The notes under the pieces: generated by a model
What the model saw: the letters and a program-made list of their open reading frames with translations, nothing else
Databases searched by the model: none
Told to the model about the DNA's origin: nothing
Translations under genes and position numbers: made by a program
NCBI RefSeq assembly: GCF_037055355.1
Contig: NZ_CP146350.1
Location: 7,959,001 to 8,023,000 of the forward strand
DNA: 64,000 nucleotides
DNA from: Streptomyces sp. DG1A-41
Lineage (GTDB): Bacteria; Actinomycetota; Actinomycetes; Streptomycetales; Streptomycetaceae
Direction of reading: 5' to 3'
Shown here: positions 3,921-50,357 of the stretch, one piece after another
Numbering within the stretch: position 1 is the first letter of the stretch
Layout of the letters: each line of letters starts with the position of its first letter

Positions 3921-6851
<2,931 letters not shown>

Positions 6852-6855
<4 letters not shown>

Positions 6856-7916: not shown

Positions 7917-8765
7917 TCAGCTGCCCTGCACCGCTCCCTCGGTGGCGCCCGCGATGAACCCGCGGGCGAAGAGGGTGAAGACCACCACCAGCGGGACGGA
8001 CGCCATGAGCACGCCGGCCATGACCATGCTGTAGTCGGTGGTGTGGCCGACATGGAGCTGGGCGAGCGCCACCTGAAGGGTGAGGTGGCCCGGATCGGTG
8101 AGCACGACGAGCGGCCAGATGTAGTCGTTCCAGGCACCGACGAAGGCGTAGATGGCGAGGAACGACAGCGCGGGTTTGATCATCGGCAGCACGATGTTCC
8201 AGTACTGGCGGAAGAAGCCCGCGCCGTCGATGCGCGCGGCGTCGAGGAGTTCGTCCGGCACGCCGTTCTCGATGTACTGGCGCAGCCAGAAGATGCCGAA
8301 GGCGTTGGCGAGGGCGGGCGGGACCAGCGCCTTGAGCGTGCCGACCCAGCCGAGGTCGGACATGAGGATGAACTGCGGGAGGATGGCCAGCTGGAGCGGC
8401 AGCATCATGAACCCCACCAGCATGGCGAACAGCACCTTGCGTCCGGGGAAGTCGAACTTGGCGAAGGCGAAGGCCGCCAGGGAGTCGACGAACAGGACCA
8501 GGACGGTGGTGACGGTCGCGACGACGAGCGTGTTCAGCATCGACCCGAAGAAGTCGATGGTGTCGAGCACGTGCCGGATGTTCTCCAGCAGCTGGGAGCC
8601 GAAGGTCAGCTTCGGCGGGCTCTTGTAGATGTCCTGGGTGGTGTTCGTCGCCATGACGATCGTCCACACGAACGGGAAGACCGAGATCACGACGGCCAGG
8701 ACGAGAACGATGTGCGCGGTCAGGCCCTTGGGGCGCCGGGACCGCCTCGTGACCGCTGCGGTCAT
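7917..8765 (-). CDS. carbohydrate ABC transporter permease (MalG/CUT1 type)
   Basis: 282 aa with six predicted membrane segments, starting near AHIVLVLAVVISVFPFVWTI. The cytoplasmic EAA loop (PDELLDAARIDGAGFFRQYW) that contacts the ATPase is intact. Length and pattern are typical of the second permease of CUT1 sugar importers. The ATG at 8765 overlaps the stop of the preceding permease gene (ATGA), giving translational coupling. No ATPase gene is linked; Streptomyces CUT1 systems usually borrow the shared ATPase MsiK, which would explain its absence. Substrate is probably an oligosaccharide, judging by the surrounding glycosidase genes. Confidence 0.93.
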   Translation of the reverse strand: MTAAVTRRSRRPKGLTAHIVLVLAVVISVFPFVWTIVMATNTTQDIYKSPPKLTFGSQLLENIRHVLDTIDFFGSMLNTLVVATVTTVLVLFVDSLAAFAFAKFDFPGRKVLFAMLVGFMMLPLQLAILPQFILMSDLGWVGTLKALVPPALANAFGIFWLRQYIENGVPDELLDAARIDGAGFFRQYWNIVLPMIKPALSFLAIYAFVGAWNDYIWPLVVLTDPGHLTLQVALAQLHVGHTTDYSMVMAGVLMASVPLVVVFTLFARGFIAGATEGAVQGS

Positions 8766-11048: not shown

Positions 11049-11109
11049 GGGTCACTCCTGTTGTTCCTGTTCGACGTGCCAAGGGGCGTGAGGGTCAGTA
11101 CCGCCGCTC

Positions 11110-12177: not shown

Positions 12178-12254
12178 CTCGGTGCACGGAATCGTGCGCC
12201 GCTCCGGGAGTTTGGTCAATACCTGAGCAGAAGCGAGCATAGAAATGATTGAAG
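12178..12254. promoter_or_regulatory. divergent control region between pfkB-like and deoR-like genes
   Basis: A 77-bp AT-richer spacer separates the divergent starts. GAAATGATTGAAGATGA at 12243-12259 is a short A/T-rich direct-repeat stretch of the kind bound by DeoR-family repressors. No perfect palindrome or clear -35/-10 pair stood out. Assignment as the DeoR operator is inferred from position and base composition. Confidence 0.35.
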
Positions 12255-13040
12255 ATGACGAGTAGTGTGCGCGGCGTGCTGGCAGAACGACGACACCAAC
12301 TCATCCTGCGGGCCCTGCGCTCCGGCGGGCCCGCGTCCGTGACCGACCTCTCGGAGCAACTGGGCGTGAGTCCCGCCACAATCAGGCGTGACCTGGTCAA
12401 ACTGGAAGAAGACGGGCTGCTGACGCGCGTCCACGGCGGCGCCGTGGTCGAGGAGGGCGACCAGCCCTTCGCCGAGGTCGCCGAGGTGCGCGTGGCCGAG
12501 AAGGACGCCATAGCCGAACGTGCGGCGGCCATGATCAAGGACGGCCAGTCGGTGCTGCTGGACATCGGGACGACGGCCTACCGCCTGGCCCGGCAGCTGC
12601 ACGGCCGCCGGCTCACCGTGATCACCAGCAACCTGGTGGTCTACGAGGAGCTCGCCGACGACGAGGGCATCGAGCTGGTCCTGCTCGGCGGCATGGTCCG
12701 CCGCGAGTACCGCTCCCTGGTCGGCTTCCTCACCGAGGACAACCTGCGCCAGTTGCACGCCGACTGGCTCTTCCTCGGCACCAGCGGTGTGCGGCCCGGC
12801 GGCCAGGTCATGGACACGACGGTCGTGGAGGTGCCGGTCAAGCGCGCCATGATCAAGGCAGGCGAGAAAGTCGTGCTACTCGCCGACGCGGCGAAGTTCC
12901 CGGGGCACGGGATGGCGCAGGTCTGCGGTCCCGGGGACCTGGACGTGGTGGTGACGAACGAGCCGGTCGATCCGGCGACGCGGGCCTCTTTGCAGGAGGC
13001 AGGCGTCGAGGTCGTCGTGACGGGAAGGGTGCAGACGTGA
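12255..13040 (+). CDS. DeoR family transcriptional regulator
   Basis: 261 aa from ATG at 12255 (TTG 12249 and GTG 12267 are alternatives; none has a strong ribosome-binding site). Residues about 8-65 are the DeoR HTH (RHQLILRALRSGGPASVTDL, then LGVSPATIRRDLVKLEEDGLL and RVHGGAV). The C-terminal DeoRC sensor domain carries the sugar-phosphate binding elements (LDIGTTAYRLARQL, VITSNLVVYEEL, LLGGMVRREYRSLVG, FLGTSG). It probably represses both divergent runs and responds to the phosphorylated sugar made by the PfkB-type kinase. The stop overlaps the next start (GTGA). Confidence 0.92.
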   Translation: MTSSVRGVLAERRHQLILRALRSGGPASVTDLSEQLGVSPATIRRDLVKLEEDGLLTRVHGGAVVEEGDQPFAEVAEVRVAEKDAIAERAAAMIKDGQSVLLDIGTTAYRLARQLHGRRLTVITSNLVVYEELADDEGIELVLLGGMVRREYRSLVGFLTEDNLRQLHADWLFLGTSGVRPGGQVMDTTVVEVPVKRAMIKAGEKVVLLADAAKFPGHGMAQVCGPGDLDVVVTNEPVDPATRASLQEAGVEVVVTGRVQT

Positions 13041-14377
13041 AGCTGACCATTCTGGGCGGCGGAGGATTCCGCGTGCCGCTGGTGTACGGGGCGCTCCTCC
13101 AGGACCACGCCGAGGGCCGGGTGACGCACGTCGTCCTGCACGATCCGGATGCCGCGAGACTGTCCGCGGTGACGCGTGTCCTCGCCGAGCAGGCGGCCGG
13201 CGTCCCCGACGCGCCCGAGGTGACCGCCACCACCGATCTGGACGAGGCCCTGCGCGGCGCCGACTTCGTGTTCTCCGCGATCCGCGTCGGCGGCCTGGAG
13301 GGCCGCGCGAACGACGAGCGGGTGGCCCTGGCCGAGGGTGTCCTCGGCCAGGAGACGGTCGGCGCGGGCGGCATCGCCTACGGCCTGCGCACCGTCCCGG
13401 TCGCCGTCGACATCGCCCGGCGGGTCGCCCGCCTGGCGCCGGACGCCTGGGTCATCAATTTCACCAACCCGGCCGGCCTGGTCACCGAGGCCATGTCCCG
13501 CCACCTCGGCGACCGCGTCATCGGCATCTGCGACTCTCCGGTCGGCCTCGGCCGCCGCATCGCGCGCGTGCTCGGCGTGAAGAACCCGGGCGAGGCGTGG
13601 ATCGACTACGTCGGCCTCAACCACCTGGGCTGGGTGCGCGGCCTGCGCGTCGCCGGCCGCGACGAGCTCCCGCGTCTGCTCGCCGACCCGGACCTGCTGG
13701 GCTCCTTCGAGGAGGGCAAGCTCTTCGGCGTCGACTGGCTCCGGTCCCTGGGCGCGATCCCCAACGAGTACCTGCACTACTACTACTTCAACCGGGAAGC
13801 CGTGCGCGCCTACCAGCAGGCCGAGAAGACCCGCGGCGCCTTCCTGCACGACCAGCAGGCTCGCTTCTACGCCGAGATGAGGAACCCGGACGCCCCGGCG
13901 TGGAAGGTCTGGGACCAGACCCGAGCCGAGCGCGAGGCCACCTACATGGCCGAGAACCGCGAGACCGCCGGCGCCGGCGAACGCGACGAGGACGACCTGT
14001 CCGGCGGCTACGAGAAGGTGGCCCTCGCGCTGATGCGGGCGATCGCCCGGGACGAGCGCACGACCCTGATCCTCAATGTCCGCAACCAGCGCACCCTGTC
14101 GGTCCTGGACACGGACGCCGTCATCGAGGTCCCGTGCCTCGTCGACGCCAACGGCGCCCACCCCGTCACCGTCGATCCGCTGCCCGGCCACGCCACCGGG
14201 CTGGTCTGCGCGGTCAAGGCGGTCGAGCGCGAGGTGCTGGCCGCCGCCGACTCCGGCTCCCGCGCGACCGCGGTGAAGGCATTCGCGCTGCACCCGCTCG
14301 TCGACTCCGTCACTGTGGCCCGCAGGCTGGTCGAGGGCTACACCGAGGTCCACCCCGGACTGGCGTACCTTAGGTGA
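13037..14377 (+). CDS. GH4 family glycosidase (6-phospho-beta-glucosidase type)
   Basis: 446 aa from GTG at 13037, coupled to the regulator gene. The N-terminal Rossmann motif LTILGGGGFRVPLV binds NAD. FTNPAGLVTEAM and the metal-binding Cys segment VIGICDSPVGLGRRI, followed by DYVGLNHLGWV with its His, are hallmark GH4 positions for Mn and catalysis. GH4 enzymes hydrolyse glycosidic bonds through a redox-elimination mechanism, usually on 6-phosphorylated or acidic sugars. The linked kinase would fit a phosphorylated substrate. Exact specificity cannot be set from sequence alone. Confidence 0.92.
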   Translation: MKLTILGGGGFRVPLVYGALLQDHAEGRVTHVVLHDPDAARLSAVTRVLAEQAAGVPDAPEVTATTDLDEALRGADFVFSAIRVGGLEGRANDERVALAEGVLGQETVGAGGIAYGLRTVPVAVDIARRVARLAPDAWVINFTNPAGLVTEAMSRHLGDRVIGICDSPVGLGRRIARVLGVKNPGEAWIDYVGLNHLGWVRGLRVAGRDELPRLLADPDLLGSFEEGKLFGVDWLRSLGAIPNEYLHYYYFNREAVRAYQQAEKTRGAFLHDQQARFYAEMRNPDAPAWKVWDQTRAEREATYMAENRETAGAGERDEDDLSGGYEKVALALMRAIARDERTTLILNVRNQRTLSVLDTDAVIEVPCLVDANGAHPVTVDPLPGHATGLVCAVKAVEREVLAAADSGSRATAVKAFALHPLVDSVTVARRLVEGYTEVHPGLAYLR

Positions 14378-36684: not shown

Positions 36685-37125
36685 CGTGTGGAGCCTGATC
36701 GGACTCTTCGTGAACCGCGATGCCTGGGGGCCTGTGGCGAGCATTGAACTCGAGCTGTACACCGACGATCCGCGTGAAGCGGCCGCACTGCGCGCCTACT
36801 GGACCCTCGCCGAGGATGGGGAGACGTGGGCGCAGACCGTCACGGCGATCCGCGACGAGTACGAGTTCACTCAGCGGGAGATGCAGGTTTTGGTCCAAGA
36901 AGGCGGCACGCTCGCTTGCACGAGGTGCGGTGCCCCGACTGCGGTGAACCGCAGGAAACCACCAGCCGCACCAACTACGCGGAGCTGCTGCGCCGCGGGA
37001 ACGTCCTGTGCGCGGTCTGCAAGGCCGTGGTTGACGAGGCACGCCGGGAGGCCGCTCGCCAGCTGCAGGAGAAGCGCCAGGAAGCCCTGCGGGAGACCTT
37101 CCCCAAGGAGGAGTCGATCACCGCC
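36685..37125 (+). pseudogene. zinc-ribbon protein of mobile-element type, frameshifted and 3' truncated
   Basis: The first frame reads VWSLIGLFVNRDAWGPVASI, YTDDPREAAALRAYWTLAED and TVTAIRDEYEFTQREMQVL. After about 36910 it continues in another frame: LHEVRCPDCGEPQETTSRTN, AELLRRGNVLCAVCKAVVDE and a charged helix ending ETFPKEES. Two C-x2-C pairs give a zinc ribbon. It is cut at about 37125 by an IS5 fragment. Similar proteins occur on Streptomyces integrated elements; function unknown. Confidence 0.55.
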
Positions 37126-37440
37126 CTCGACCAGTCGAGCCTCTTCGCCGACCGCAGCTTCTTCAGCAGCACCAGATGCAGCTGGTCCCACACGCCGGCC
37201 TCGTTCCACTCGGCCAGGCGCCGCCTGCAGGTCATCCCTGAGCCGAAGCCCAGCTCCTGGGGCAGGTACTCCCACTGGATCCCGGTGTGGAGCACGAACA
37301 GGATCCCGCACAACGCCTGGCGGTCGGGAACCCGCGGTCGGCCCGAGACCAGCTTCGGCCCCGGCTTGGGCAGCAACAACTCGATGAGCGACCACACTTA
37401 CGTCCGACACGATCCACGGCCGCGACTGACGCTTCCCCAC
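37100..37440 (-). pseudogene. IS5-family transposase fragment (first, divergent copy)
   Basis: Reading from 37440: GKRQSRPWIVSD, then after a frameshift LIELLLPKPGPKLVSGRPRV, FVLHTGIQWEYLPQELGFGS, RRLAEWNEAGVWDQLHLV and DWSRAVIDSS, where it is cut off. This is the N-terminal third of an IS5/IS427-type transposase, distinct in sequence from the two closely matching copies at 37.6 and 49.9 kb. Confidence 0.75.
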
Positions 37441-37501: not shown

Positions 37502-38340
37502 TAAGGGGTCCTTGCGGAGAGATCTTGTTGTGGCACGGTGGAGACGTATGTGATCACGTGCTTTGTGGGGTGTGACCATGGCGCGGCGGAAGCCGTGGGA
37601 GGTCAGTGACGAGTTGTGGGCGGTGATCGAGCCGCTGCTGCCGAGGCATGAGCGGCGGTTCCGGTACCCGGGGCGCAAGCGGATCGATGACCGCAGGACG
37701 CTGCAGGGTGTGCTGTTCGTCCTCTACACCGGGATCCAGTGGGAGTACCCGCCGCAGGAGTTGGGGTTCGGTTCCGGGCCTACCCGCTGGCGGCGATTGG
37801 CTGAATGGCAGGAGGCCGGGGTGTGGGAGGAACTCCAGCGGGTGCTGCTGGACCGGTTGCGGTCGGCGGACCGCCTGGACTTCTCCCGCGTCACCGTTGA
37901 TGCCTCGCACGTGCAGGCCAAGCGGGGGTGAAGCAGCGCAAAAGTGGGTCCGAGTCCGGTTGACCGCGCGCGGCCGGGCTCGAAGCACCACGTGCTGACC
38001 GAGGCGCACGGTATTTCGCTGCGGGTGTCGTTGACGGGCGGGCACCGCAACGACGTCACGCAGCTCCTGCCGCTGGTCGACAGCGTGCCGCCGGTGCGGG
38101 GCAAGCGGGGCCGGCCTCGGCGCAAGCCCCGGGCGTTGTATGCCGACCGTGGCTACGACCACGACATCTACCGCCGTCGTCTGCGCGAGCGCGGCATAGT
38201 CCCGAAGATCGCCCGGCGCGGCGAGCCGCACGGTTCAGGTCTGGCCGCATTTGGTGGATAGCGGAATCCGCCATCGCCTGGCTCCATGGCCCCCGCCGTT
38301 TACGGACCCGCTGGGAAACCCGAGACGACATGCACGACGC
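37502..38340 (+). mobile_element. IS5-family element, copy 1, right end lost
   Basis: The left tip TAAGGGGTCCTT at 37502-37513 matches the inner end of the second copy (49384-49395), so it is the terminal repeat. The transposase frame starts at 37578. After DDMHDAF (about 38340) the sequence changes abruptly to an ISKra4-type remnant and no right terminal repeat is found. Confidence 0.75.
37578..38340 (+). pseudogene. IS5-family transposase, copy 1, interrupted by an in-frame TGA
   Basis: ATG at 37578: MARRKPWEVSDELWAVIEPL, PGRKRIDDRRTLQGVLFVLY, TGIQWEYPPQELGFGSG and DFSRVTVDASHVQAKRG (first DDE Asp), then TGA at 37929. The same frame resumes GPSPVDRARPGSKHHVLTEA (second part of the catalytic core), LYADRGYDHDIYRRRLRERG and a stop at 38261. 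The remaining IAESAIAWLHGPRRLRTRWE (with Glu) follows only in another frame because of small indels near 38240-38265. Dead copy. Confidence 0.8.
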
Positions 38341-39003: not shown

Positions 39004-39618
39004 TCAGATCCAGCCCCGGAGGCGGGCGATGTGCGCGGCGCTGTGGCGGTTGGCGGCACCGAGCTTGGCGACGGCCTGGGAGAGATAGTTGCGTACGGTG
39101 CCGGGCGCCAGGGTGGCGCGGTGCGCGATCTCGCTGACGGTCGCACCGTCGGCGGCGAGCGCCAGGATGTCGGCCTCGCGGGCGGAGAGGGGGGAGTCGC
39201 CTGCGGCGATGGCATCCGCGGCGAGGGAGGGGTCGATATACCGGTTACCCGTATGGACGGTGCGGATGACGGTGGCGAGCTGGGCGGCGGAGACGGTTTT
39301 CGGGACGAAGCCCTTGACGCCCGCCTCCAGGGCCCGCTTCAGATGGCCGGGAAGCCCGTGGCTGGTGACGATGAGCGTCCGGCAGCCGGAATCCCGCGCG
39401 GTGATCGTACGAGCGGCGGTGATGCCGTCGGCCTCCGGCATCTGAAGGTCCAGGACGGCGACATCGGGTCGGTGGTCCCGGGCGGCGCTGATGGCTTCGG
39501 TGCCGGTGGCGGCCTGGGCGACGACCTCCAGATCGGTCTCCAGGGCGAGCAGTGCCGCGAGGGATTCGCGGATGAGGCGTTCGTCCTCGGCGAGCAGCAC
39601 GCTGATCACGGGGTCCAT
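39004..39618 (-). CDS. NarL/LuxR-type response regulator
   Basis: 204 aa from ATG at 39618. The receiver domain has the acidic pair in VLLAEDERLIRESLAALLAL, the phospho-acceptor Asp in DVAVLDLQMPEADGI, LIVTSHG (Thr/Ser switch) and KGFVPKTVS (Lys). The C-terminal LuxR HTH is LSAREADILALAADGATVSE, IAHRATLAPGTVRNYLSQAV and KLGAANR. It is last in a four-gene leftward operon (ABC ATPase, permease, kinase, regulator) and overlaps the kinase stop (TGATG). It probably controls that exporter operon and the divergent linaridin-like precursor genes through the repeats at 42567-42699. Confidence 0.93.
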   Translation of the reverse strand: MDPVISVLLAEDERLIRESLAALLALETDLEVVAQAATGTEAISAARDHRPDVAVLDLQMPEADGITAARTITARDSGCRTLIVTSHGLPGHLKRALEAGVKGFVPKTVSAAQLATVIRTVHTGNRYIDPSLAADAIAAGDSPLSAREADILALAADGATVSEIAHRATLAPGTVRNYLSQAVAKLGAANRHSAAHIARLRGWI

Positions 39619-40781
39619 CACGGATGCTCCTGGGCTGGTATGCGGGCGGTGACGAGGTAGGTGCCGTCGCTCTCCGGGCCATGGGTGAGGGTTCCGGCGT
39701 GGTCCGCCAGGCGCTGCGCGAGTCCTTTGAGGCCGGTGCCGGCGGTGGCGCCCGTGGCGGGGGCGGGGTCTGGGTTGTTGTTGGCGACGGTGAGGGTGCT
39801 GGCCGCGGCGGAGTGGGTGAGCGTGATGGCGCAGTAGCTGGCGCGGGAGTGACGTATGACGTTCGTGGCGGTCTCGCGTACCGCCCAGCCCAGGACGCTC
39901 TGCACGGTCGGGTCCGGTTCGGCGCCGGTGGTGCGGACCCGGCAGGTGATGCCCGCGGCGGCGAGGACGGAGCGGGCGCCGTCGAGTTCGGTCTCCAGAT
40001 CGGTGGTGTGGTAGCCCCGGACGACCTCGCGGATCTCCTGCTGGGACTCGCGGGCAAGCCGCTGGATCTCCGTCAGTTCGGACTCGGCTCTGGGGACAGG
40101 GGAAAGCCTGGCGGCGAGTTCGGCCTTGAGGGCGATGACCGCGAGAGTGCGGCCGAGGGTGTCGTGCAGATCGCGGGCGAAGCGGAGACGTTCCTCGGCG
40201 ACGGCGAGCCGGGTCTCGCTCTGGCGTGCGCTGTTCAGTTGGTGCATGACCTGTAGGGACCACTGTGAGGTGCGTACGCCGAGGGTGGTGATGACCCAGA
40301 GGGTCAGGACGGCTGAGGTGCCGGGCAGGGCCTCGGGCCCGGCCGCCCAGCCGGTGGCGAGGGTGCTGGTCAGCGCGAGGGCGCTGCTGAACCGCCAGTG
40401 CGCGCAGGACCAGGCGGCGGCGGTGGGGATGACGGCCAGGGCGCAGGCGGCGGTGGCGACCTTCGGGGCCTCGGGGAGCCATCCGTGGTCGAGTGCGGGC
40501 CGCACGAGGCCGAGCCCGGCGGCCGTCGCGAGCGCGGTGACGGCCAGCAGGGCGGGTCTGGCGCCGGGCGGCGGGGTGTGCAGAGCCAGCGTCGCCGTGT
40601 GGGTCGCGGCCAGCGTCAGACCTGCGTAAGCCGTGAAGACGATCAGGCCGGGGATGTCATCGGTCAGCGGCGCGACGACGGGCCAGGCGAAGGCGGAGGC
40701 GGAGACGAGGACGGCGAAGGCGAGGGCCCAACGGGAGACGACGGTCACCCGCTGGACGCCCGCGTGCGGGGAGCCGGGCAT
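39618..40781 (-). CDS. sensor histidine kinase (HisKA_3/NarX type)
   Basis: 387 aa from ATG at 40781, overlapping the permease stop (TGATG). Five or six hydrophobic segments in the first 190 residues (LAFAVLVSASAFAWPVV, LIVFTAYAGLTLAATHTATL, ALLAVTALATAAGLG) form a membrane sensor with no large extracellular loop. The dimerisation/phospho-acceptor box is RFARDLHDTLGRTLAVIALK. The ATPase has VRETATNVIRHS (N box) and GTGLKGLAQRLADHAG (G box). Such intramembrane-sensing kinases beside ABC-2 exporters often respond to peptide antibiotics. Partner of the response regulator downstream. Confidence 0.92.
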   Translation of the reverse strand: MPGSPHAGVQRVTVVSRWALAFAVLVSASAFAWPVVAPLTDDIPGLIVFTAYAGLTLAATHTATLALHTPPPGARPALLAVTALATAAGLGLVRPALDHGWLPEAPKVATAACALAVIPTAAAWSCAHWRFSSALALTSTLATGWAAGPEALPGTSAVLTLWVITTLGVRTSQWSLQVMHQLNSARQSETRLAVAEERLRFARDLHDTLGRTLAVIALKAELAARLSPVPRAESELTEIQRLARESQQEIREVVRGYHTTDLETELDGARSVLAAAGITCRVRTTGAEPDPTVQSVLGWAVRETATNVIRHSRASYCAITLTHSAAASTLTVANNNPDPAPATGATAGTGLKGLAQRLADHAGTLTHGPESDGTYLVTARIPAQEHP

Positions 40782-41545
40782 CAGGTGCGGGGCTCCCAGC
40801 GGAACCAGCGGCGGGCCGCGCCCAGTGCGAGAACCGTCCAGCCGGCCAGGACCGCCAGCCGCAGCAGCGCCTCGGACGTGGTGAGGGTGCCTGTCCAGGC
40901 GTTGCGTACGAGGTCGATGACCGGAGTCATCGGCAGCCACTGGCAGATGTCCTGCATCAGCCGCGGCATGGCTTCGAGGGGAAAGAAGGTGCCGGACGTG
41001 GTGGGCAGGAGGAAAAGCAGCGGCAGCACGGCGACTTGCACATTCTCGGTGGTGCGGGCCAGCGCGCTGGTGGCCGCCGCCAGGGCGCACATCAGCACGA
41101 TGCCCAGGACCACGGCGGCGAGGGCCCAGTGCGCCGCGTCGGGAGCGCCCGCCCCGGTCAGCGGCAGCAGGACCGCAGTGATCAGGGCGGTCTGGATCAG
41201 GACGATCGCCGCGGAGGGAAGCGCGGTGCCGGTGAGCAGGGTGGGGTCGGCGACCTCGCCGGTCCGCAGGCGCTTGAGGAGGAGTTCGTCGCGGCGTGCG
41301 ACGTATGTGGTGGTGAGGGGAACGTACAGGGAGAAGACGAGGACGATTCCGGCGGAGGTCGCCACCATGACGGGCCCCATGGACAGTCCCAGGTTGCCGA
41401 GTTCGAACTTGCTCATGGTGATGTGGAGGGCGGCGAGGGTGAAGACGGGGATGAACAGGACGTTGACGACATTGGTCTTGGCACGGAAGAAGAGGGTTGC
41501 CTCGGCCCGGCCGAGGGCGGCGAGCTGGCGTGCGGGGCTGCTCAT
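40781..41545 (-). CDS. ABC-2 type transporter permease (peptide/drug export)
   Basis: 254 aa with six membrane segments: VNVLFIPVFTLAALHITM, MGPVMVATSAGIVLVFSLYV, SAAIVLIQTALITAVLLPLTG, ALAAVVLGIVLMCALAAATS, VAVLPLLFLLPTTSGTFFPL and LAVLAGWTVLALGAARR. YVARRDELLLKRLRTG between the second and third is the ABC-2 coupling region. It pairs with the ATPase encoded just upstream (ATGA overlap). The likely cargo is the linaridin-like peptide encoded across the divergent promoter region, or the pair gives self-resistance. Confidence 0.9.
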   Translation of the reverse strand: MSSPARQLAALGRAEATLFFRAKTNVVNVLFIPVFTLAALHITMSKFELGNLGLSMGPVMVATSAGIVLVFSLYVPLTTTYVARRDELLLKRLRTGEVADPTLLTGTALPSAAIVLIQTALITAVLLPLTGAGAPDAAHWALAAVVLGIVLMCALAAATSALARTTENVQVAVLPLLFLLPTTSGTFFPLEAMPRLMQDICQWLPMTPVIDLVRNAWTGTLTTSEALLRLAVLAGWTVLALGAARRWFRWEPRT

Positions 41546-42519
41546 GCGGTTTGGGGCTCCTCGCTGCGGGTGAGGCCGTTCCGGGCGATGTGGAGAAAGG
41601 CCTCTTCGAGGCTCGCGGAGCGCGCGTCGAGGCCGGTCAGGGTGATGTCGTGGTCGCGGGCCCAGATGAGCAGTTCGGTGGTGGTGTGCTGCAGATGCGG
41701 GGTCTCGATCCGCAGGGTGCGGCCCTGGGCGCAGACGCGGCTGGCGGAGAGCACTTCGGGTGACGGCAGGTCGGTGGGGCGGTGGGTGTCGGGCAGGCCG
41801 AAGGAGAGCGTCGCCGGGTACTGGCCGACGATCTCGGGGACCGTGCCGTGGGCGGCGATCTGCCCGGCGTGCATGATCGCGAGATGGTCGGCGAGGGCTT
41901 CGGCCTCTTCGAGGTAATGGGTCGTCAGAACAATGGTGGTGCCCATGTCTTTCAGACTTCTGATGAGGCGCCAGGTGTCGTGGCGTCCCTCCGGGTCCAT
42001 GCCCGTGGTGGGCTCGTCGAGGAAGAGCAGATCGGGATCCGCGAGGGTGGCCAGGGCCAGGTCGAGGCGGCGCTTCTCGCCACCGGAGAGGTTCTTGACC
42101 TGCACGTCGGCGCGATGAGTGAGACCCACCAGGGCGATGGCGTCCCGCACGGGACGAGGGCGGCTGATGCAGCCGGCCCACATGCGGGCGGTCTCGGCCA
42201 CGGTGAGCTGCTCGGCGAATCCGCTGTGCTGGAGCATGGCACCGGTGCGCGGCCTGGTCTGTTTGCGGTCGCGGAACGGGTCGTACCTGCCGAAGAGTCG
42301 GATGCTTCCTTCGGCGGGCCTGGCCAGGCCTTCGAGCAGTTCGATGGTGGAGGTCTTGCCTGCGCCGTTCGTACCGAGGAGGCCGAAGAGTTCGCCTTTT
42401 CGCACGGTGAAGCTGACGCCGCGCACGGCGTCGAAGGCCTTGGTGCCGCTTCCGTACCGGCGCCAGAGATCTGTGACCTCGATCACATTTTCCTGGGAAG
42501 GGGGGATCATGCGACTCAT
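41542..42519 (-). CDS. ABC transporter ATP-binding protein (exporter type)
   Basis: 325 aa if started at ATG 42519 (MSRMIPPSQENVIEV). The frame is open to GTG 42582, but that would place the operator-like repeats inside the gene, and no start has a clear ribosome-binding site. Walker A is LLGTNGAGKTSTIELLEGL, the signature VKNLSGGEKRRLDLAL, Walker B DLLFLDEPTTGMDPEG and the switch His is in TTHYLEEAEALADH. The C-terminal 90 residues (SLEEAFLHIAR end) match DrrA-type antibiotic exporters. First gene of the leftward exporter/two-component operon. Confidence 0.92.
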   Translation of the reverse strand: MSRMIPPSQENVIEVTDLWRRYGSGTKAFDAVRGVSFTVRKGELFGLLGTNGAGKTSTIELLEGLARPAEGSIRLFGRYDPFRDRKQTRPRTGAMLQHSGFAEQLTVAETARMWAGCISRPRPVRDAIALVGLTHRADVQVKNLSGGEKRRLDLALATLADPDLLFLDEPTTGMDPEGRHDTWRLIRSLKDMGTTIVLTTHYLEEAEALADHLAIMHAGQIAAHGTVPEIVGQYPATLSFGLPDTHRPTDLPSPEVLSASRVCAQGRTLRIETPHLQHTTTELLIWARDHDITLTGLDARSASLEEAFLHIARNGLTRSEEPQTA

Positions 42520-42566
42520 CGTCGAGCCGATGGGCGGCCTCCTCCAGTGCAGCGTGTCATCGGTTT

Positions 42567-42699
42567 CCATGACAGACGTCACGCTCCAGTGTGATAAATG
42601 TCATGGGAAAATACGGCCGTGTTCCCAAGTTCGTGCGTGATGTGCGTCATGTTGCACTGGCAGGTTCGAGTGATTGTCTCCTTTCCGTGGCGCACGTCA
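42567..42699. promoter_or_regulatory. repeated TGAN6TCA-type operators in the linaridin-cluster divergent region
   Basis: Four 14-bp sites share the form TGAYGTGYGTCATG: TGACGTCTGTCATG (minus strand, 42568-42581), TGATAAATGTCATG (42592-42605), TGATGTGCGTCATG (42638-42651) and TGACGTGCGCCACG (minus, 42686-42699). The first two sit in a larger inverted repeat, CCATGACAGACGTCAC and GTGATAAATGTCATGG (42567-42582 and 42591-42606, 8-bp centre). They lie between the leftward ABC/two-component operon and the rightward precursor genes, the expected place for binding of the cluster response regulator. Confidence 0.6.
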
Positions 42700-42803
42700 C
42701 ACGCCTCAACGGGGGCACGGGGGACAACATCTGCACAACTGGGCCATGCCCACCTCCGCGACCCCTCGACGGGCGGAATCGTTTCGTCTAGAGGGAGAAA
42801 ACC

Positions 42804-42950
42804 GTGCAGGAACTTCTGTCGCACTTCGACGCCGAGGACATCAACACCAACGAGGGCGAGGTCATGATCGACCACGCTCCTGTGATGGCCACGCCGATCA
42901 CCGTCACCATCACGGCGACGACCGCGACCACTGCCACCACCGCCAACTGA
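42804..42950 (+). CDS. linaridin-like RiPP precursor peptide A1
   Basis: 48 aa from GTG at 42804, with GAGGGAG 6 nt upstream. The leader reads MQELLSHFDAEDINTNEGEV then MIDHAPVMA. The PVMATP border matches the PxxxTP motif described at the leader/core junction of linaridins. If cleaved before Ala, the core is ATPITVTITATTATTATTAN: 20 residues with ten Thr, one Pro and no Cys or Ser. In linaridins Thr is dehydrated to dehydrobutyrine and an N-terminal Ala is dimethylated. Unmodified core mass calculates to about 1920.0 Da. A close paralogue follows 75 bp downstream. Absence of Cys excludes the aminovinylcysteine ring of cypemycin. Confidence 0.85.
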   Translation: MQELLSHFDAEDINTNEGEVMIDHAPVMATPITVTITATTATTATTAN

Positions 42951-43025
42951 CCGCGCGCCGGCTCCGCCGGCTCCGTACAGACAGCCTGCGTGCTGACGCC
43001 ACAGCCAGGAAGGGGGTGACGACTG

Positions 43026-43172
43026 ATGAAGGAGATCATCGAACACTTCGACGCCCAGGACATCGAGGGCGACAAAGGTGAGGTCCGTATCGACCACGCC
43101 CCGGTGATGGCCACGCCGATCACGGTGACGACCACCGCCACCACGGCGACCACCGCCACATTCGGCGCCTGA
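43026..43172 (+). CDS. linaridin-like RiPP precursor peptide A2
   Basis: 48 aa from ATG at 43026, with AGGAAGGGGG upstream. The leader MKEIIEHFDAQDIEGDKGEV plus RIDHAPVMA is nearly the same as A1: HFDAxDI, GEV, IDHAPVMA are shared, while the middle varies. Predicted core ATPITVTTTATTATTATFGA again has ten Thr and no Cys; it differs from A1 by Ile to Thr and by the last three residues (FGA for TAN). Unmodified core mass calculates to about 1897.0 Da. Two nearly parallel substrates for one set of enzymes suggest either a product family or a two-component peptide. Confidence 0.85.
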   Translation: MKEIIEHFDAQDIEGDKGEVRIDHAPVMATPITVTTTATTATTATFGA

Positions 43173-43226
43173 CACAGCTGAAGCAACGGCGAACAGCTGA
43201 GGCAGCCGAGCAGCAATGCGATGAAC

Positions 43227-43261
43227 CCCGCCGGGCCACAGGGCTGATGTGGCCCGGCGGG
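43227..43261 (+). terminator. hairpin between precursor genes and modification genes
   Basis: A perfect 14-bp stem (CCCGCCGGGCCACA at 43227-43240, TGTGGCCCGGCGGG at 43248-43261) with a 7-nt loop, followed by CTCTTGTTC. Partial termination here would give far more precursor than enzyme mRNA, as is usual in RiPP operons. Confidence 0.75.
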
Positions 43262-43289
43262 CTCTTGTTCAGGACTCACGGAGGAGCCG

Positions 43290-45170
43290 GTGAACCGTAC
43301 CCGCAAGTTAGCAGCAGCTCTCTTCAGACCACTGCCCGTCTCGCGCGAACGGGCCGTCGGCATTTCCGAACGGCTGTCCGCCCTCACCTCCCTACAGGCG
43401 TCACTCGAATATCTGCGCCTGCGGCACGAGATGAAGCCCGGTGGCCTGCACGACTGGGACGTCATGCGAGAGGCGCACCGCGCCGGTACACCCGCCACCC
43501 GCAAGCTCCTTGACGCCGTTGCCCGTCCGCGCGTAACCACCGCCGTTCATGTGTCGAGGACAGTGGTGTCCGCCGCCATGCTGCTGCCGGGCACCTCCCG
43601 GTGGCGGGGCGCGGGAAGCGCCTTTCTCGCCGTCTCCGGAGCCGCCGTCTACGCCCGCCACCGCTACGGCACCGACGGCTCCGATCAGGTCTCCGTGCTC
43701 GTCCAGGGCGGCAACGCCCTGGCCAGGCTGTCCCGTTCACCCGCCGTGCAAGACGCGGTGATCTGGCACACCGCCCTCCAGTCCAACCTGTCTTACGCCG
43801 TGTCCGGCTGGTTCAAGCTGGTCGGCTCCTCCTGGCGCGACGGCACCGCCCTGCGCAACATCATGCGCACCCGGACGTACGGTCACGAACCTGCCTTCAC
43901 TCTCGCCGACCGGTACCCCAGGGCGGCCAAGGCCATGGTCCACTCCGTACTAATTCTTGAGTGCGGCTTCCCTCTCCTCTACGCCTTCCGCGGCCGGCTC
44001 GTCGCGCCCGTGCTCGCCTCCGCCGTCGCCTTCCACGGCGCGAACGGATTCCTGCTCGGCCTGGGCCGGTTCCTGTCGGCGTTCACCTCGATGCACCCGT
44101 ACGTGGCGTACACCTCCACGCCCAGGGACCACCCGGCTGTCGCCGGGCGGGACGACCGTACGGTGCCCGCCGCCCTCATCGCCCTCGGCGCGGCCGCCGC
44201 CGGAGCCGGTGTCGCCGCGGTGCAGCGGCGCGCCCGGGTGCTCGAAGGGCCGCCCGGCACCGAGCGCATCACCACAGCGCCCGGTAACACCCTCGCGTAC
44301 CAGCTGCACGAGGGTGAAGCGGGCGAGCCGGTGGTGGTTCTTGTCTACGGACTTGCCTCCATGCCGGAGCAATTCGCCTGGATCTCCGCCACACTCCGCG
44401 ACGAGAGCCGGCTGGGGATCATGACATACGACCGGGCCGGCGACGGCGCGAGCCGGCGCGGACCGGATGCCGCCGAGGACCTGGACACGCTCGCCGCGGA
44501 TCTCGCGGAGCTGGCCAGGCGTGCGGTGCCCGCCGACCGGAAGGTGATCCTCGCCGGGCACTCGCTCGGCGGCGACCTGGCACGCCGCGCGGCCCGGCTG
44601 CTCGGGGACCGGCTCGCCGGGGTCGTCTACCTGGACGCCGCGCACCCGGGCGAACTACAGCGGTCCAAACGGCAGCGGGACGCGGCCGGGCGTTTCCACG
44701 AGCTCCTCGCGGTGATGGACTGGTCGAACCGGGTCGGCGCGGGAGCGGTCATGACCCGCCCGCCGTGGCTGGAGTCCCTGCCGTTCACGGCGCGCAGGCG
44801 CGCGATGTGGCAGTACGCGGACGCCGGCATGTGGTGCGCCGCCCGGCGGGAGTGGTCCGCGGTCAAGGCCGACTACGACCGCTTCGGCGGCGAACTGCCC
44901 CCGGTGAACTGCCCGGCACTGGTCGTCTCGGCGCAGCAGACGGTGGACTCGGATCCCGAACAGCTCCTCATGCACCACGAGATCGCGCAGGCCCACCGGG
45001 CGACGGGCGCGCAGGCGCAGACGTTGGTCATCGAGGGGTCCCATCACGATTCACTCATGACAAACGGCACTTACGCGACGCGGGTCGCCCGGCACATCCT
45101 GGCTTTCGTGAACGACGCCGCCGCACGTCCGGCGGCGGAGACCGACCACCGGAAGGAGGCCCGTTCGTGA
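43290..45170 (+). CDS. linaridin-cluster membrane/alpha-beta-hydrolase fusion protein (LinH-like)
   Basis: 626 aa from GTG at 43290 (GGAGGAG upstream). Codon 7 is TTA (43308-43310), the rare bldA-dependent leucine codon. Residues about 90-310 are a multi-helix membrane domain resembling HTTM/VKGC-type proteins (YAVSGWFKLVGSSWRDGTAL, LILECGFPLLYAFRGRLVAP, GLGRFLSAFTSMHPYVAYTS). From about 330 an alpha/beta-hydrolase follows: VVVLVYGLASMPEQFAWI, the nucleophile elbow LAGHSLGGDLARR (Ser), a VVYLDAAHPG strand and the His in IEGSHHDSLM. Hydrolase-type LinH proteins are core linaridin enzymes; in related clusters LinH has been linked to residue epimerisation, which I cannot confirm here. Membrane-bound; coupled to the next gene. 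Confidence 0.75.
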   Translation: MNRTRKLAAALFRPLPVSRERAVGISERLSALTSLQASLEYLRLRHEMKPGGLHDWDVMREAHRAGTPATRKLLDAVARPRVTTAVHVSRTVVSAAMLLPGTSRWRGAGSAFLAVSGAAVYARHRYGTDGSDQVSVLVQGGNALARLSRSPAVQDAVIWHTALQSNLSYAVSGWFKLVGSSWRDGTALRNIMRTRTYGHEPAFTLADRYPRAAKAMVHSVLILECGFPLLYAFRGRLVAPVLASAVAFHGANGFLLGLGRFLSAFTSMHPYVAYTSTPRDHPAVAGRDDRTVPAALIALGAAAAGAGVAAVQRRARVLEGPPGTERITTAPGNTLAYQLHEGEAGEPVVVLVYGLASMPEQFAWISATLRDESRLGIMTYDRAGDGASRRGPDAAEDLDTLAADLAELARRAVPADRKVILAGHSLGGDLARRAARLLGDRLAGVVYLDAAHPGELQRSKRQRDAAGRFHELLAVMDWSNRVGAGAVMTRPPWLESLPFTARRRAMWQYADAGMWCAARREWSAVKADYDRFGGELPPVNCPALVVSAQQTVDSDPEQLLMHHEIAQAHRATGAQAQTLVIEGSHHDSLMTNGTYATRVARHILAFVNDAAARPAAETDHRKEARS

Positions 45171-45751
45171 AGACACTCAACTTCCTTGGCGGAGCAGCAC
45201 GCTCGGCCTTCACCGGGCCCGGTGCCTGGACCAGGGTCGCCGCCGCGGCAGCGGTCGTGGCGACGGTGGCGACCCAGCATTACCACATCACCGTCTACAA
45301 CCGGGTGCAGTCCAAGGACCAACTCTCGCTCATCCCCAACTGGCGATTCTTCGCGCCGGAGCCCGGCGTCCACGACTACGCCTTCATCTACCGCACCACC
45401 GACGTCGACGGAGTGCGGTCGCGGTGGCAGGGCGTGGATCTGATCACGGGCCGGAAGATGCGGCAGCTGGTGTGGTTCCCCACCCGGCGCCCGGAGAAAG
45501 CCGTGTTCGACCTGGCGACGGAGCTGCTGCACGTCATCGACAAGGACTTCGCGGTCATCACGAGGATGCCCGCCTACCGGCTGCTCGAGCGCTACCTGGT
45601 GTCCCGGATCCGCGCCGCCGACCCGGAAAGTCGCGTGGTGGGTCATCAGATCGCGATGGTCAAGTCCACCGGCTACGACAACGGCCACGAACCGCAGATG
45701 GTGCTGCTGTCGCCGTACACCCCGCTGGACCGAGTACTGGAGCAATTTTGA
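45167..45751 (+). CDS. linaridin-cluster membrane-anchored protein (LinG/LinL-like, tentative)
   Basis: 194 aa from GTG at 45167 with GGAAGGAGG upstream, overlapping the previous stop. One membrane segment (WTRVAAAAAVVATVATQHYH, about residues 20-37) precedes a soluble domain with LIPNWRFFAPEPGVHDYAFI, FIYRTTDVDGVRSRWQGVDL, KAVFDLATELLHVIDKDF and GYDNGHEPQMVLLSPYTPL. The NWRFFAPxPG motif is typical of small proteins paired with HTTM-like membrane proteins. I infer that it works with the preceding fusion protein at the membrane, probably in dehydration or its support. No known catalytic motif. Confidence 0.6.
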   Translation: MKTLNFLGGAARSAFTGPGAWTRVAAAAAVVATVATQHYHITVYNRVQSKDQLSLIPNWRFFAPEPGVHDYAFIYRTTDVDGVRSRWQGVDLITGRKMRQLVWFPTRRPEKAVFDLATELLHVIDKDFAVITRMPAYRLLERYLVSRIRAADPESRVVGHQIAMVKSTGYDNGHEPQMVLLSPYTPLDRVLEQF

Positions 45752-45912
45752 TGAAGCAAGCCCTCGGCGTCCTTGCCGCGTTCGCGTTCGCCGGCCTGAT
45801 GATCCTGCTGACCTATCTGGAGATCCTCTCGCTGTGGGCCGCCATGGGCATCGCGGCCGTCGTGTGGGTGGCGATCCTGGTCTTCGCCCCGAAGAAGAGC
45901 GAGCACCGATGA
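45751..45912 (+). CDS. small two-helix membrane protein of the linaridin-like cluster
   Basis: 53 aa from ATG at 45751, overlapping the preceding stop (TGATG) and overlapping the next start (ATGA). Two hydrophobic segments, LGVLAAFAFAGLMILLTYLE and LWAAMGIAAVVWVAILVFAP, and a basic tail KKSEHR. Its coupling on both sides argues that it is a real part of the machine, perhaps a membrane scaffold or immunity peptide. No family recognised. Confidence 0.7.
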   Translation: MKQALGVLAAFAFAGLMILLTYLEILSLWAAMGIAAVVWVAILVFAPKKSEHR

Positions 45913-46721
45913 CGGGGCGGGGAGCGGGGCCTCGGCCAGGCCCCATGGACGACATCGGCTACGGGCTACAGTTCGACGGCTGGTACGACCGGCTGTTCCC
46001 CGATGCGGAGGCGGCCCGCCGGACAGCGAAGAACCTCGCCGCCCGCCACCCGGACCCCGCCCTGGGCAGCTGCGAATTCGGAGTGGGCACCGGTCGTATC
46101 GCCATCCCGCTGTCCCACCAGGTGGGCGAGGTGGTCGGCGTGGACTCCTCCCCTCAGATGCTCGCCGCACTCGGCCGGGCCGTACGCGAGCAGCGCGAAC
46201 CGACCGCGGCCGTCACCGCAGTCCACGCGGACATCCGCAGCTTCCGCAGCGAACGGCGCTTCGGCCTGGTGTACGCGGTCTGCGCGACGCTGAACCAGCT
46301 GCTGTCCCGCGAGGACCAGCAGGAGGTGGTCCGGCGCGCCGCCGAACTGCTCGTCCCCGGTGGCCTCCTGGTACTCGAAGGCCACAACCACCCGTGGGTG
46401 GAAGCCCTGCACGAAGGGCGGGCGCGTACCACCTTGTTCACCCCGTACCCCGAACCGGGCACAGGGCTGCAGACTCACTCCACGTTCGACGCCGGCAGGG
46501 GCCTGTGGCAGTGCTCGCACATCTGGTACGAGAAGGACGGCACGACCCGGGTCGGCACCGAGTACTCGCTGCTGCTCACCCCGTCCCGTACCGACGCCTA
46601 TGCGCGGGCAGCCGGGCTGCGCCCTGCCGCCGAGGGCGCCTTGCACGGGGACTGGGAGCACGGCGAGTACACCGAGGCGTCTCCCACGTTCGTCGCCGTC
46701 TACGAGAAGCCCGCCCCCTGA
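45909..46721 (+). CDS. SAM-dependent methyltransferase (CypM-like, probable alpha-N-methyltransferase)
   Basis: 270 aa from ATG at 45909; a second ATG at 45945 (MDDIGYGLQFDGWYDRLF) is a plausible start too. The class I SAM fold shows motif I as SCEFGVGTGRIAIPL, motif II VVGVDSSPQMLAALG, VHADIRSFRSERRFGLVYAV and GGLLVLEGHNHPW. YGLQFDGWYDRLFPD before motif I resembles the N-terminal part of CypM-type enzymes, which add two methyl groups to the peptide N-terminus in linaridins. Predicted acceptor here is the core N-terminal Ala. Soluble. Confidence 0.82.
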   Translation: MTGRGAGPRPGPMDDIGYGLQFDGWYDRLFPDAEAARRTAKNLAARHPDPALGSCEFGVGTGRIAIPLSHQVGEVVGVDSSPQMLAALGRAVREQREPTAAVTAVHADIRSFRSERRFGLVYAVCATLNQLLSREDQQEVVRRAAELLVPGGLLVLEGHNHPWVEALHEGRARTTLFTPYPEPGTGLQTHSTFDAGRGLWQCSHIWYEKDGTTRVGTEYSLLLTPSRTDAYARAAGLRPAAEGALHGDWEHGEYTEASPTFVAVYEKPAP

Positions 46722-46815: not shown

Positions 46816-48267
46816 ATGAGCGTCGATGCTGTCGTCGTCGGCTCGGGACCCAACGGGCTCGCCGCCGCCGTCACCCTCGCCCGCGCGGGCCTTGCGGTCG
46901 AGGTCTTCGAGGCCCACGACACCATCGGCGGGGGCCTGCGCACCGAAGCCCTCTTCGACAGCGACGTCGTCCACGACATCTGCTCCGCGGTGCACCCGAT
47001 GGCCGTCGCCGCCCCGTTCTTCCGCGAGTTCGACCTGCCCGCGCGCGGCGTCGAACTCCGCCGTTCCGACGCCGCGTACGCCCATCCCCTTCCGGACGGC
47101 CCGGCGGCTGTCGCGTACCGCGACCTGGCCCGCACCTGCGAACGTCTTGGCCGGGACGGGCCGCGCTGGCGCCGACTGATGGAGCCACTGACGGCGCACA
47201 GCGAGGACTTCGTCCGGCTGATTCTCCAGGGGCCCACCGCGCTGGGCCGGGTCGGCCCGCGGGTGCTGCTCGCCCTCGGCACCCGCGTCCTCGCGCACGG
47301 AACGCCCCGGGCGCCCGGCCAGTTCACCGACGAACCCGCCCGCGCCCTGCTCACCGGCGTCGCCGCGCACGCCATCGGCCCGCTGCCCAGCATCGCCTCG
47401 GGCACAGTGGCCATGCTGCTCGGGCATCTCGCGCACACCAGCGGGTGGCCGCTGCCCCGTGGCGGCAGCGCGCGCATCGCCCAGGCCCTGGCCGACGACC
47501 TCATCGCCCACGGCGGCACCCTCTACACCGGCATCCGCGTGGATGACCTGCGGGACCTGCCACCCGCCCGGATCGTCCTGCTCGACATCAGCCCGAAGGA
47601 GGTCATCCGTATCGCCGGGCACGCCCTGCCCGCCGGGTACGCCCGACGGCTGCGCCGCTTCCGGTACGGCCCCGGCGCCGCGAAGGCGGACTTCCTGCTG
47701 AGCGAGCCCGTCCCGTGGGCCGACCCGGACACCGCGGCCGCCGCCACGGTCCATCTCGGCGGCACCCAGCAGGAGATGTTCCACCAGGAGACCCGCACCG
47801 CCCGCGGGAGCGCCACTGGCGAGCCGTTCGTCCTCCTCGTCGACCCGACCGTGGCCGACCCCACACGCGCCCGCCCCGGCAAGCGGCCCCTCTGGGCCTA
47901 CGCCCATGTACCCAACGGCAGCACCGAGGATCCGCTGCCTCTCATCCGTGCCCGCATCGAGCGCTACGCCCCGGGTTTCACCGACACGGTCGTCGCCGAG
48001 CGGGCCACCAGCGCGGCGGCGATGGAGCAGTACAACCCCAACTACGTCGGCGGGGACATCGGCGCCGGCGCGATGACGCTCGGCCAGTCCCTCTTCCGCC
48101 CCACGATCCAGCGCGACCCGTACCGCACCCCCCTGCCCGGCGTGTACCTGTGCTCGGCCTCCACCCCGCCGGGGCCCAGTGTGCACGGTATGTCCGGATA
48201 CCTCGCGGCGCGCTCAGCGCTGCGCCGTGAGGCCGGCGTCCGCGAGTTCCCGGCGCTCGCCCCGTAG
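46816..48267 (+). CDS. FAD-dependent oxidoreductase, phytoene-desaturase-like (LinE-type)
   Basis: 483 aa from ATG at 46816 (GAGGAG upstream). N-terminal VVVGSGPNGLAAAVTLARAG with VEVFEAHDTIGGGLRTEA is the FAD-binding motif of the phytoene-desaturase/CrtI superfamily. GVYLCSASTPPGPSVHGMSG near the C-terminus is the second FAD contact. The middle (LPRGGSARIAQALADDLIAH) is the family substrate domain. Oxidoreductases of this type recur in type-B linaridin clusters (legonaridin-like), although their chemistry is not settled. The last gene of the rightward operon, followed by a terminator. Confidence 0.85.
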   Translation: MSVDAVVVGSGPNGLAAAVTLARAGLAVEVFEAHDTIGGGLRTEALFDSDVVHDICSAVHPMAVAAPFFREFDLPARGVELRRSDAAYAHPLPDGPAAVAYRDLARTCERLGRDGPRWRRLMEPLTAHSEDFVRLILQGPTALGRVGPRVLLALGTRVLAHGTPRAPGQFTDEPARALLTGVAAHAIGPLPSIASGTVAMLLGHLAHTSGWPLPRGGSARIAQALADDLIAHGGTLYTGIRVDDLRDLPPARIVLLDISPKEVIRIAGHALPAGYARRLRRFRYGPGAAKADFLLSEPVPWADPDTAAAATVHLGGTQQEMFHQETRTARGSATGEPFVLLVDPTVADPTRARPGKRPLWAYAHVPNGSTEDPLPLIRARIERYAPGFTDTVVAERATSAAAMEQYNPNYVGGDIGAGAMTLGQSLFRPTIQRDPYRTPLPGVYLCSASTPPGPSVHGMSGYLAARSALRREAGVREFPALAP

Positions 48268-49383: not shown

Positions 49384-50212
49384 TAAGGGGTCCTTTCAGA
49401 ATGCTGGGTTCTCGCGGGCGAGGGTCATGCAGTGGGCGAGCTGGAGGAACGAACGCGTCGTGCATGTCGTCCCGCGTTTCCCAGCGGGTCCGTAAGCGGC
49501 GTGGGCCGTGGAGCCAGGCGATGGCGGACTCGGCAACCCACCGCACCCGGCCCAGGCCCGAGCCGTGCGGTTCTCCGCGCCGGGCGATCTTCGGGACGAT
49601 GCCGCGCTCGCGCAGACGACGGCGGTAGATGTCGTGGTCGTAGCCACGGTCGGCATACAACGCCCGGGGCTTGCGCCGAGGCCGGCCCCGCTTGCCCCGC
49701 ACCGGCGGCACGCTGTCGACCAGCGGCAGGAGCTGCGTGACGTCGTTGCGGTGCCCGCCCGTCAACGACACCCGCAGCGAAATACCGTGCGCCTCGGTCA
49801 GCACGTGGTGCTTCGAGCCCGGCCGCGCGCGGTCAACCGGACTCGGACCCACTTTTGCGCTGCTTCACCCCCGCTTGGCCTGCACGTGCGAGGCATCGAC
49901 GGTGACGCGGGAGAAGTCCAGGCGGTCCGCCGCCCGCAACCGGTCCAGCAGCACCCGCTGGAGTTCCTCCCACACCCCGGCCTCCTGCCATTCAGCCAAT
50001 CGCCGCCAGCGGGTAGGCCCGGAACCGAACCCCAACTCCTGCGGCGGGTACTCCCACTGGATCCCGGTGTAGAGGACGAACAGCACACCCTGCAGCGTCC
50101 TGCGGTCATCGATCCGCTTGCGCCCCGGGTACCGGAACCGCCGCTCATGCCTCGGCAGCAGCGGCTCGATCACCGCCCACAGCTCGTCACTGATCTCCCA
50201 CGGCTTCCGCCC
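49384..50212 (-). mobile_element. IS5-family element, copy 2, 5' end lost
   Basis: Very similar to copy 1 at 37502-38340 but inverted. It keeps the terminal repeat TAAGGGGTCCTT next to the transposase C-terminus (49384-49395). At its 5' side it is cut at about 50212, inside the first codons of the transposase, where a zinc-ribbon gene begins. Confidence 0.78.
49396..50212 (-). pseudogene. IS5-family transposase, copy 2, with the same in-frame TGA
   Basis: Reads RKPWEISDELWAVIEPLLPR through DASHVQAKRG, then the same TGA as copy 1 (49862-49864 region), then GPSPVDRARPGSKHHVLTEA, ARRGEPHGSGLGRVRWVAES, AIAWLHGPRRLRTRWETRDD and, after one frameshift at DAF, LQLAHCMTLARENPAF*. The DDE residues are all represented, but the reading frame is broken three times (5' end, TGA, C-terminal shift). 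Confidence 0.78.
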
Positions 50213-50357
50213 GGAGGACACGGTCCTTGCCGCAGACCGGGCACGTTGCCTTCGCGGCCTGTTCCTGCATCCGGCGCCAGCGCCGGCAGCAGTGCTCACG
50301 GTCGAGATAGCCGACTGGTGCCCCGCAGGTGACGCAGTCGCGTTGCCTCTTGCCCAC
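50213..50357 (-). pseudogene. zinc-ribbon protein of mobile-element type, N-terminal fragment
   Basis: From GTG 50357: VGKRQRDCVTCGAPVGYLDR, EHCCRRWRRMQEQAAKATCP and VCGKDRVL, then the IS5 junction. Three Cys pairs. Genes of this kind follow small XRE genes on Streptomyces integrative elements, the same order as here. Confidence 0.6.

Follow-up and report, generated by a model that had tools for sequence, protein, structure and literature searches.

The window analysed in this study, a stretch of 64,000 nucleotides from Streptomyces sp. DG1A-41, contains a pair of small twin genes followed on the plus strand by a set of putative modification enzymes, with transport and regulatory genes upstream on the minus strand. 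The features are listed below, with identities to a reference cluster of Streptomyces sp. CT34.

39004..39618, minus strand: LuxR-type response regulator
39618..40898, minus strand: histidine kinase (HisKA_3; start codon approximate)
40781..41545, minus strand: DrrB-like ABC-2 permease (start codon taken from the ORF translation)
41542..42513, minus strand: DrrA-like ABC ATPase, transcribed away from the precursor genes (a Pfam match; 208.9 bits with NCBIfam drrA, whose cut-off is 312.45)
42804..42950, plus strand: precursor gene A1, GTG start, 28 aa leader, core ATPITVTITATTATTATTAN
43026..43172, plus strand: precursor gene A2, ATG start, 28 aa leader, core ATPITVTTTATTATTATFGA
43227..43261, plus strand: hairpin of 14 pairs between precursor and enzyme genes, a possible partial terminator
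43290..45170, plus strand: LinH (626 aa), N-terminal HTTM-like membrane part fused to an alpha/beta hydrolase with GHSLG (Pfam hydrolase matches)
45167..45751, plus strand: LinL, GTG start overlapping the LinH stop, profile homology to reference LinL
45751..45912, plus strand: small membrane protein of 53 aa, overlapping both neighbours
45909..46721, plus strand: SAM methyltransferase, predicted to perform N-terminal dimethylation, 56% identity to the CT34 methyltransferase
46816..48267, plus strand: FAD oxidoreductase (CrtO/CrtI-like), 67% identity to that of the CT34 cluster

After A1 and A2 the operon runs in the order LinH, LinL, 53-aa membrane protein, methyltransferase and FAD oxidoreductase, with overlapping stop and start codons from LinH through to the methyltransferase. 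The divergent promoter region (42545-42715) contains several partial inverted repeats around GACGTCA/TGTCAT, which are possible regulator sites, and fragments of IS4/5-type transposases flank the cluster at 36978-37397, 37563-37928 and 49868-50299.

The twin genes comprise 48 codons each in the ORF listing, and a GGGAG resembling a Shine-Dalgarno sequence lies 5' of the GTG start of A1. They share HFDAxDI, GEV and IDHAPVMATPITVT exactly. Taking the core to begin directly after PVM, both cores have 20 residues with ten Thr, one Pro and neither Ser nor Cys; they differ at position 8 (I/T) and in the final three residues (TAN/FGA), and their computed unmodified monoisotopic masses are 1920.005 Da (A1) and 1896.968 Da (A2). 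The two 48-residue genes, their common motifs, the core differences, the composition and masses of about 1920.0 and 1897.0 Da had all been put forward in the first-pass annotation, and translation and recalculation reproduced them. The GC content of the A1 and A2 codons was 0.54-0.56 at position 1, 0.46-0.48 at position 2 and 0.90 at position 3, the last being a coding-type value. Comparison of the two cores codon by codon gives 9 synonymous and 4 residue-changing differences in 20; for the leaders the tally over 28 codons is 4 synonymous and 11 non-synonymous, but one of the 11 is the GTG/ATG start, so that ten residues differ. When the source genome (8.99 Mb in a single contig) was searched at the DNA level, the precursor stretch turned up once, the other two matches spanning only 43 and 48 bases.

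Reference clusters were drawn from the Streptomyces sp. CT34 and S. griseus genomes by way of related loci. We assigned locus L152 of CT34 as legonaridin-type (type B) and locus L153 of S. griseus as grisemycin-type (type A). L061 is another LinL/LinH locus of CT34, whose genome also gave a third, weak LinL match, and L152 was chosen on its core mass and gene set: eight dehydrations and two methyl groups bring its core to a computed 3600.87 Da, and a linaridin of 3.6 kDa has been reported from this strain in the available text of PMC4319589. The LinH family profile scored S. griseus LinH at 177.9 bits, CT34 LinG at 168.2 and CT34 LinE at 78.3, and the LinL family profile, which includes the window's own row, scored the CT34 and S. 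griseus LinL at 102.2 and 69.9 bits; the accompanying E-values (7.7e-56 to 5.5e-23) refer to a search set of five sequences only. Pairwise comparisons with the window gave E-values of 4e-28 for LinH, 9e-26 for LinG, 1e-10 for LinE, and 2e-11 and 6e-10 for LinL. The triad residues Ser425, Asp449 and His586 of LinH are identical in all 18 family rows, in S. griseus LinH and in CT34 LinE. LinH had no HTTM match in Pfam, and the HTTM name follows usage in the accessible part of PMC9927463. The 53-aa membrane protein had no match in NCBIfam and only a sub-cut-off match to DoxX_2 (E 0.01) in Pfam; a short membrane-protein ORF also lies directly before the methyltransferase gene of locus L041 (11956-12357), by position like 45751-45912 of the window.

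Linaridins are ribosomally made peptides with chemically dehydrated threonines, and LinH and LinL together are the enzymes that determine the family. PxxxTP is described as the linaridin cleavage motif and LinL as the hallmark in the text available from PMC9927463. PVMATP is present in both A1 and A2 and fits this motif, so that with the LinL homologue both the published hallmark and the published motif occur here, alongside the fused LinH and a methyltransferase of predicted activity. The reading of A1 and A2 as linaridin precursors, proposed earlier from the letters alone, is thus supported by PxxxTP and by LinH and LinL, which have homologues in the clusters of S. griseus and CT34. With the S. 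griseus decarboxylase LinD as query, no LinD was found in the window (best match E 0.59), whereas the same query did detect its own gene in L153 and a related one in L190. Type A was rejected, there being no LinD in the window and no Cys in the cores, and because no decarboxylase was found the cluster was taken as type B. The FAD enzyme, close to that of CT34, is not matched by name to the oxidoreductase of type B clusters, which the accessible text of PMC9927463 calls short-chain. Two other classes were also considered. A lanthipeptide was rejected, as neither core has a Cys for (methyl)lanthionine. A daptide was rejected as well, since daptide_MTase, the best NCBIfam model for the window methyltransferase, gave 71.7 bits, far under the curated cut-off of 175; it was likewise the best model, below cut-off, for the CT34 methyltransferase.

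The threonine density of the twin cores stands apart from that of other precursors. Thr makes up a fraction of 0.50 of each core, whereas 80 other precursors have a median of 0.074 and reach at most 0.20; that background was picked by P-x-x-x-TP, with precursors lacking TP outside the set. The background was built from 99 related loci, at least 9 being second copies of a cluster. A LinH alignment yielded 79 loci (the best 80 of 101 relatives); a contig scan with the window LinL as single query gave no match. The motif search returned 94 rows from 65 loci, leaving 34 of 99 loci without a row, and removal of 12 identical peptides and 2 copies of one non-precursor ORF left 80 unique peptides from 56 loci. 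The first-pass annotation had called the fully dehydrated chain unlike described linaridins such as cypemycin. For Thr density this is borne out by the cores compared here (10/20, versus 2/19 in S. griseus and 8/37 in CT34), but the design is not unique, since it recurs in other genera.

Three precursor searches, the last of them limited in scoring to the 8000 candidates with the most words in common, identified ten relatives with the Thr-saturated design (organism names as written in the sources). Three are close: P0001, a relative of A1 with the same core, P0003, a relative of A2, and P0002; P0001 and P0003 are annotated as S. nigrescens. Seven are more distant, namely P0004 (Lipingzhangella), P0005 (Nocardiopsis deserti), P0008 (Auritidibacter ignavus), P0006, P0007, P0009 and P0010. 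The relatives keep the core while their leaders have diverged, which argues that the cores of A1 and A2 are not products of chance, and spurious low-complexity ORFs were rejected on this ground. Judged by sequence, Thr-saturated precursors thus form a small subfamily and A1 and A2 are no singleton. The design is sparse in the genomes covered. Outside the genome of the window itself, a profile search of 392 Streptomyces genomes gave no strong match, and a single-sequence search of 296 relatives, a set overlapping the former, gave none in the other 295. Weak matches (E 6e-4 to 9e-3) were seen in four other genomes of the 392, two of them directly upstream of linH, within ordinary linaridin precursors. 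The filtered Thr scan (123 loci; 41 matches including duplicates and the window) showed no further Thr-saturated precursor among 28 listed, with a GC filter that misses lower-GC loci; the Auritidibacter locus L200 lies outside these 28. The G739 family, represented by 226 genomes, yielded two matches, G1000 (locus L200, whose precursor is P0008) and G1017 (locus L201), the latter with two precursor-like ORFs, both ordinary. The contexts of P0004 and P0005 were sought around G733, in 220 genomes of its family and 40 of its genus, with no match; as this search had no known positive, the result is uninformative. In the literature, none of the matches listed links linaridins to Auritidibacter or Lipingzhangella, and no paper was found on threonine-rich linaridins or on bacteriocins of Auritidibacter ignavus; the large survey of linaridins PMC7680433 may list some of these precursors.

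We consider it probable (about 0.7) that the twin genes are precursors of two type B linaridins with dense dehydration. According to the pathway proposed here, LinH and LinL would bind the leader and convert core Thr to dehydrobutyrine (Dhb), the leader would then be cleaved after PVM, and the newly exposed N-terminal Ala would be dimethylated by the methyltransferase; export of the products, or protection of the producing cell, may fall to the DrrAB-like ABC pair. Each product would be a linear 20-mer in which as many as ten residues are Dhb, largely as an (Ala-Dhb-Dhb) repeat, for which we propose me2-A-Dhb-P-I-Dhb-V-Dhb-(I/Dhb)-Dhb-A-Dhb-Dhb-A-Dhb-Dhb-A-Dhb-(Dhb-A-N / F-G-A), with predicted masses, if fully dehydrated and N-dimethylated, of 1767.93 Da (A1) and 1744.89 Da (A2). 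The hairpin past the precursor genes would hold the precursor transcript above the enzyme transcript. Region 43215-43280 folds at -36.9 kcal/mol (z -4.44); one terminator-like site was seen versus 0.7 expected in shuffles, so that the count alone is no evidence and was reckoned against the preferred reading. Two further points counted against it: the Pro of the TP motif is absent from P0005, P0007 and P0010, and the best NCBIfam model for the methyltransferase is daptide_MTase, albeit far under the cut-off.

The extent of dehydration is where the nearest alternative departs. The same pathway might leave part of the Thr unchanged, epimerise residues or reduce Dhb by means of the FAD enzyme, giving a mixed chain, and this we regard as possible though not the likelier outcome. 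The accessible text on corynaridin, a type B linaridin of Corynebacterium lactis, reports mass spectrometry in which all seven Thr plus Ser were dehydrated and the precursor was cut at PxxxTP, with under-dehydrated forms also present and the major form fully dehydrated; crdG, crdE and crdL are described there as homologous to genes to which Thr dehydration is tentatively ascribed (PMC9927463). The partly dehydrated forms fit a mixed chain, as does the FAD enzyme, to which the pathway assigns no role, and GrmL may be a peptide epimerase, some type A linaridins holding D-residues according to the available part of PMC10373908. Against this stand the fully dehydrated major form of corynaridin and the CT34 mass, which fits dehydration at 8/8 Thr, and from these two we infer dehydration of the twin cores, with full dehydration as a prediction. 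Within our analysis, the under-dehydration of corynaridin and the load of ten Thr on LinH and LinL would still weigh against dense dehydration.

The function of the products is a further point on which readings may differ. SapB is a surface/morphogenetic peptide, and the twins might have such a role instead of acting as antibiotics, or be active only as a pair. The dehydrated cores would be hydrophobic and without charged side chains, a two-component system lies upstream, and the relatives of both twins annotated as S. nigrescens, which probably occur together, would suit paired action. We nevertheless think this improbable, as the transporter pair suggests export or immunity and the accessible text of PMC9927463 reports both corynaridin and cypemycin as antibacterial, a role the twin products would probably share.

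The cores also show a three-residue register. Across 12 homologous cores, those of A1 and A2 among them (positions 4-17), Ala, Gly or Ser falls at core position 4, 7, 10, 13 or 16 in 43 of 44 cases, the exception being in P0010, whose Cys at position 13 was left uncounted; an earlier count with ten cores gave 36/36. P0011 (E 3.3) and L056 did not enter the count, and P0007-P0009 entered it trimmed of their extensions, with the cut placed at position 17 or later. Six representatives gave the same register (23/24), and composition-keeping shuffles reached the observed register in 0 of 20,000 trials, a p-value that overstates the evidence because the register was seen before testing and the cores are homologous. 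That the ATT repeat is merely an artefact of replication slippage in a 9-bp unit under weak constraint, with a meaningless Thr excess, is highly unlikely: three-codon repeats do arise so, with period three automatic, and homologous cores offer non-independent tests of a register noticed beforehand, but codons of the repeat unit differ synonymously and the register of the small residue, taken from the cleavage site, is kept in other genera despite diverged leaders.

Dhb promotes beta-turns or 3-10 helices and dehydroalanine runs are extended, as stated in the available text of PMC10880069, and the three-residue repeat could place the small residues on one face of a 3-10 helix. Tentatively, and with more doubt than belief, we suggest a subfamily of linaridins whose products are natural foldamers (Ala-Dhb-Dhb register, 3-10 helix, small side chains on one face), a design kept or arisen twice in two distant LinL lineages, with fused LinH in Streptomyces and a separate HTTM-like protein in Auritidibacter. 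If the dense-dehydration reading is true, the locus would be a genetically encoded natural test of the Thr capacity of LinH/LinL and of dense-Dhb folding, with two 20-residue substrates simple enough to reconstitute and masses predicted exactly. Cypemycin has four Dhb; were every core Thr dehydrated, Dhb would account for half of each twin peptide, a density above that of any linaridin compared here.

In the LinL tree, locus L056 of Streptomyces sp. 8K308 is the window's sister (support 99/98). L200 lies outside the 94-row LinL group containing the window (97/89) and joins L191 (94/85), on two long branches that make the placement unsure. Of 68 comparable loci (no duplicates, 17 kb or longer, fused LinH at 40% identity or more), 61 carried LinT; the figure is 69 of 89 with every such locus counted, and LinT was present in 12/12 loci with a DrrA-like plus a DrrB-like match. 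In the window, which has such a DrrAB-like pair, the longest LinT matches cover 208 and 229 of 667 residues, both ATPase parts and one of them the DrrA-like gene; the absence of a fuller LinT match in the window was counted against the preferred reading. L200 similarly combines a DrrA-like ATPase with a weaker permease match (30%) and lacks LinT, and these two cases of DrrA-like without LinT are too few for a rule.

Several related loci showed features of their own. Three to five precursor-like ORFs each lie in the linaridin-like clusters of L116 (5830-7131), L131 (8321-9512), L105 (8854-9889) and L114 (8684-9375), with differing cores and near-identical last residues (GSKQPS/GSKQPN in 5/5 of L116, NVELPM in 3/4 of L131, THPTLPHA in three of L105); the near-constant C-termini in these four loci look like a second recognition site. 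In L038, adjacent linaridin-like clusters, one split and one fused, lie on opposite strands (5463-8549 and 10080-14208).

Comparison with known and neighbouring systems places the cluster as follows. The S. griseus L153 cluster, a precursor ending PAMATPAVAQFVIQGSTICLVC and then a fused LinH, resembles the window in fused LinH (27.7%), LinL (31%), a PAMATP motif and a weakly similar methyltransferase (27.5%, E 7e-7), but it has a decarboxylase, a C-terminal Cys, a core of 19 aa with 2 Thr and no match to the FAD enzyme. Corynaridin shares PxxxTP, the LinL-type hallmark and many Thr with the window, and by mass spectrometry all of its Thr are dehydrated; it differs, by description and not by sequence, in its 69-aa precursor with seven Thr in the C-terminal part and in the absence of the N-terminal methyltransferase, which is usual in linaridins (PMC9927463, available text). 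L200 of Auritidibacter ignavus has the ATPATTATTATTAIFGF core, LinL (30%), an HTTM-like protein (33%), a DrrA-like ABC protein (44%) and a histidine kinase, whereas it has no fused LinH match, its LinL is placed away and its precursor carries a long C-terminal extension. Such extensions past the core, in L200 (8892-9164), P0007 and P0009, share a ...SV.E(L/M)...AR..A motif and may represent a follower peptide, and the precursor extension in L191 (10815-11111) is alike by eye. In CT34 L152, unlike in the window, the HTTM-like protein and the hydrolase are separate genes, LinG, LinE and LinL are only about 30-34% identical, LinT is present, and the one precursor found has a core of 37 aa with 8 Thr; its likeness lies in a PxxxTP-like motif (PTMITP), LinL, the HTTM-like and hydrolase functions, the methyltransferase and the FAD oxidoreductase. 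Finally, L056 of Streptomyces sp. 8K308 has a different core (CVVAVTVTVTTVAVTIG, 17 residues, Val/Thr-rich, five Thr, no TP), and it is like the window in LinH (63% identity) and in a similar leader, DILSHFDIQDI.
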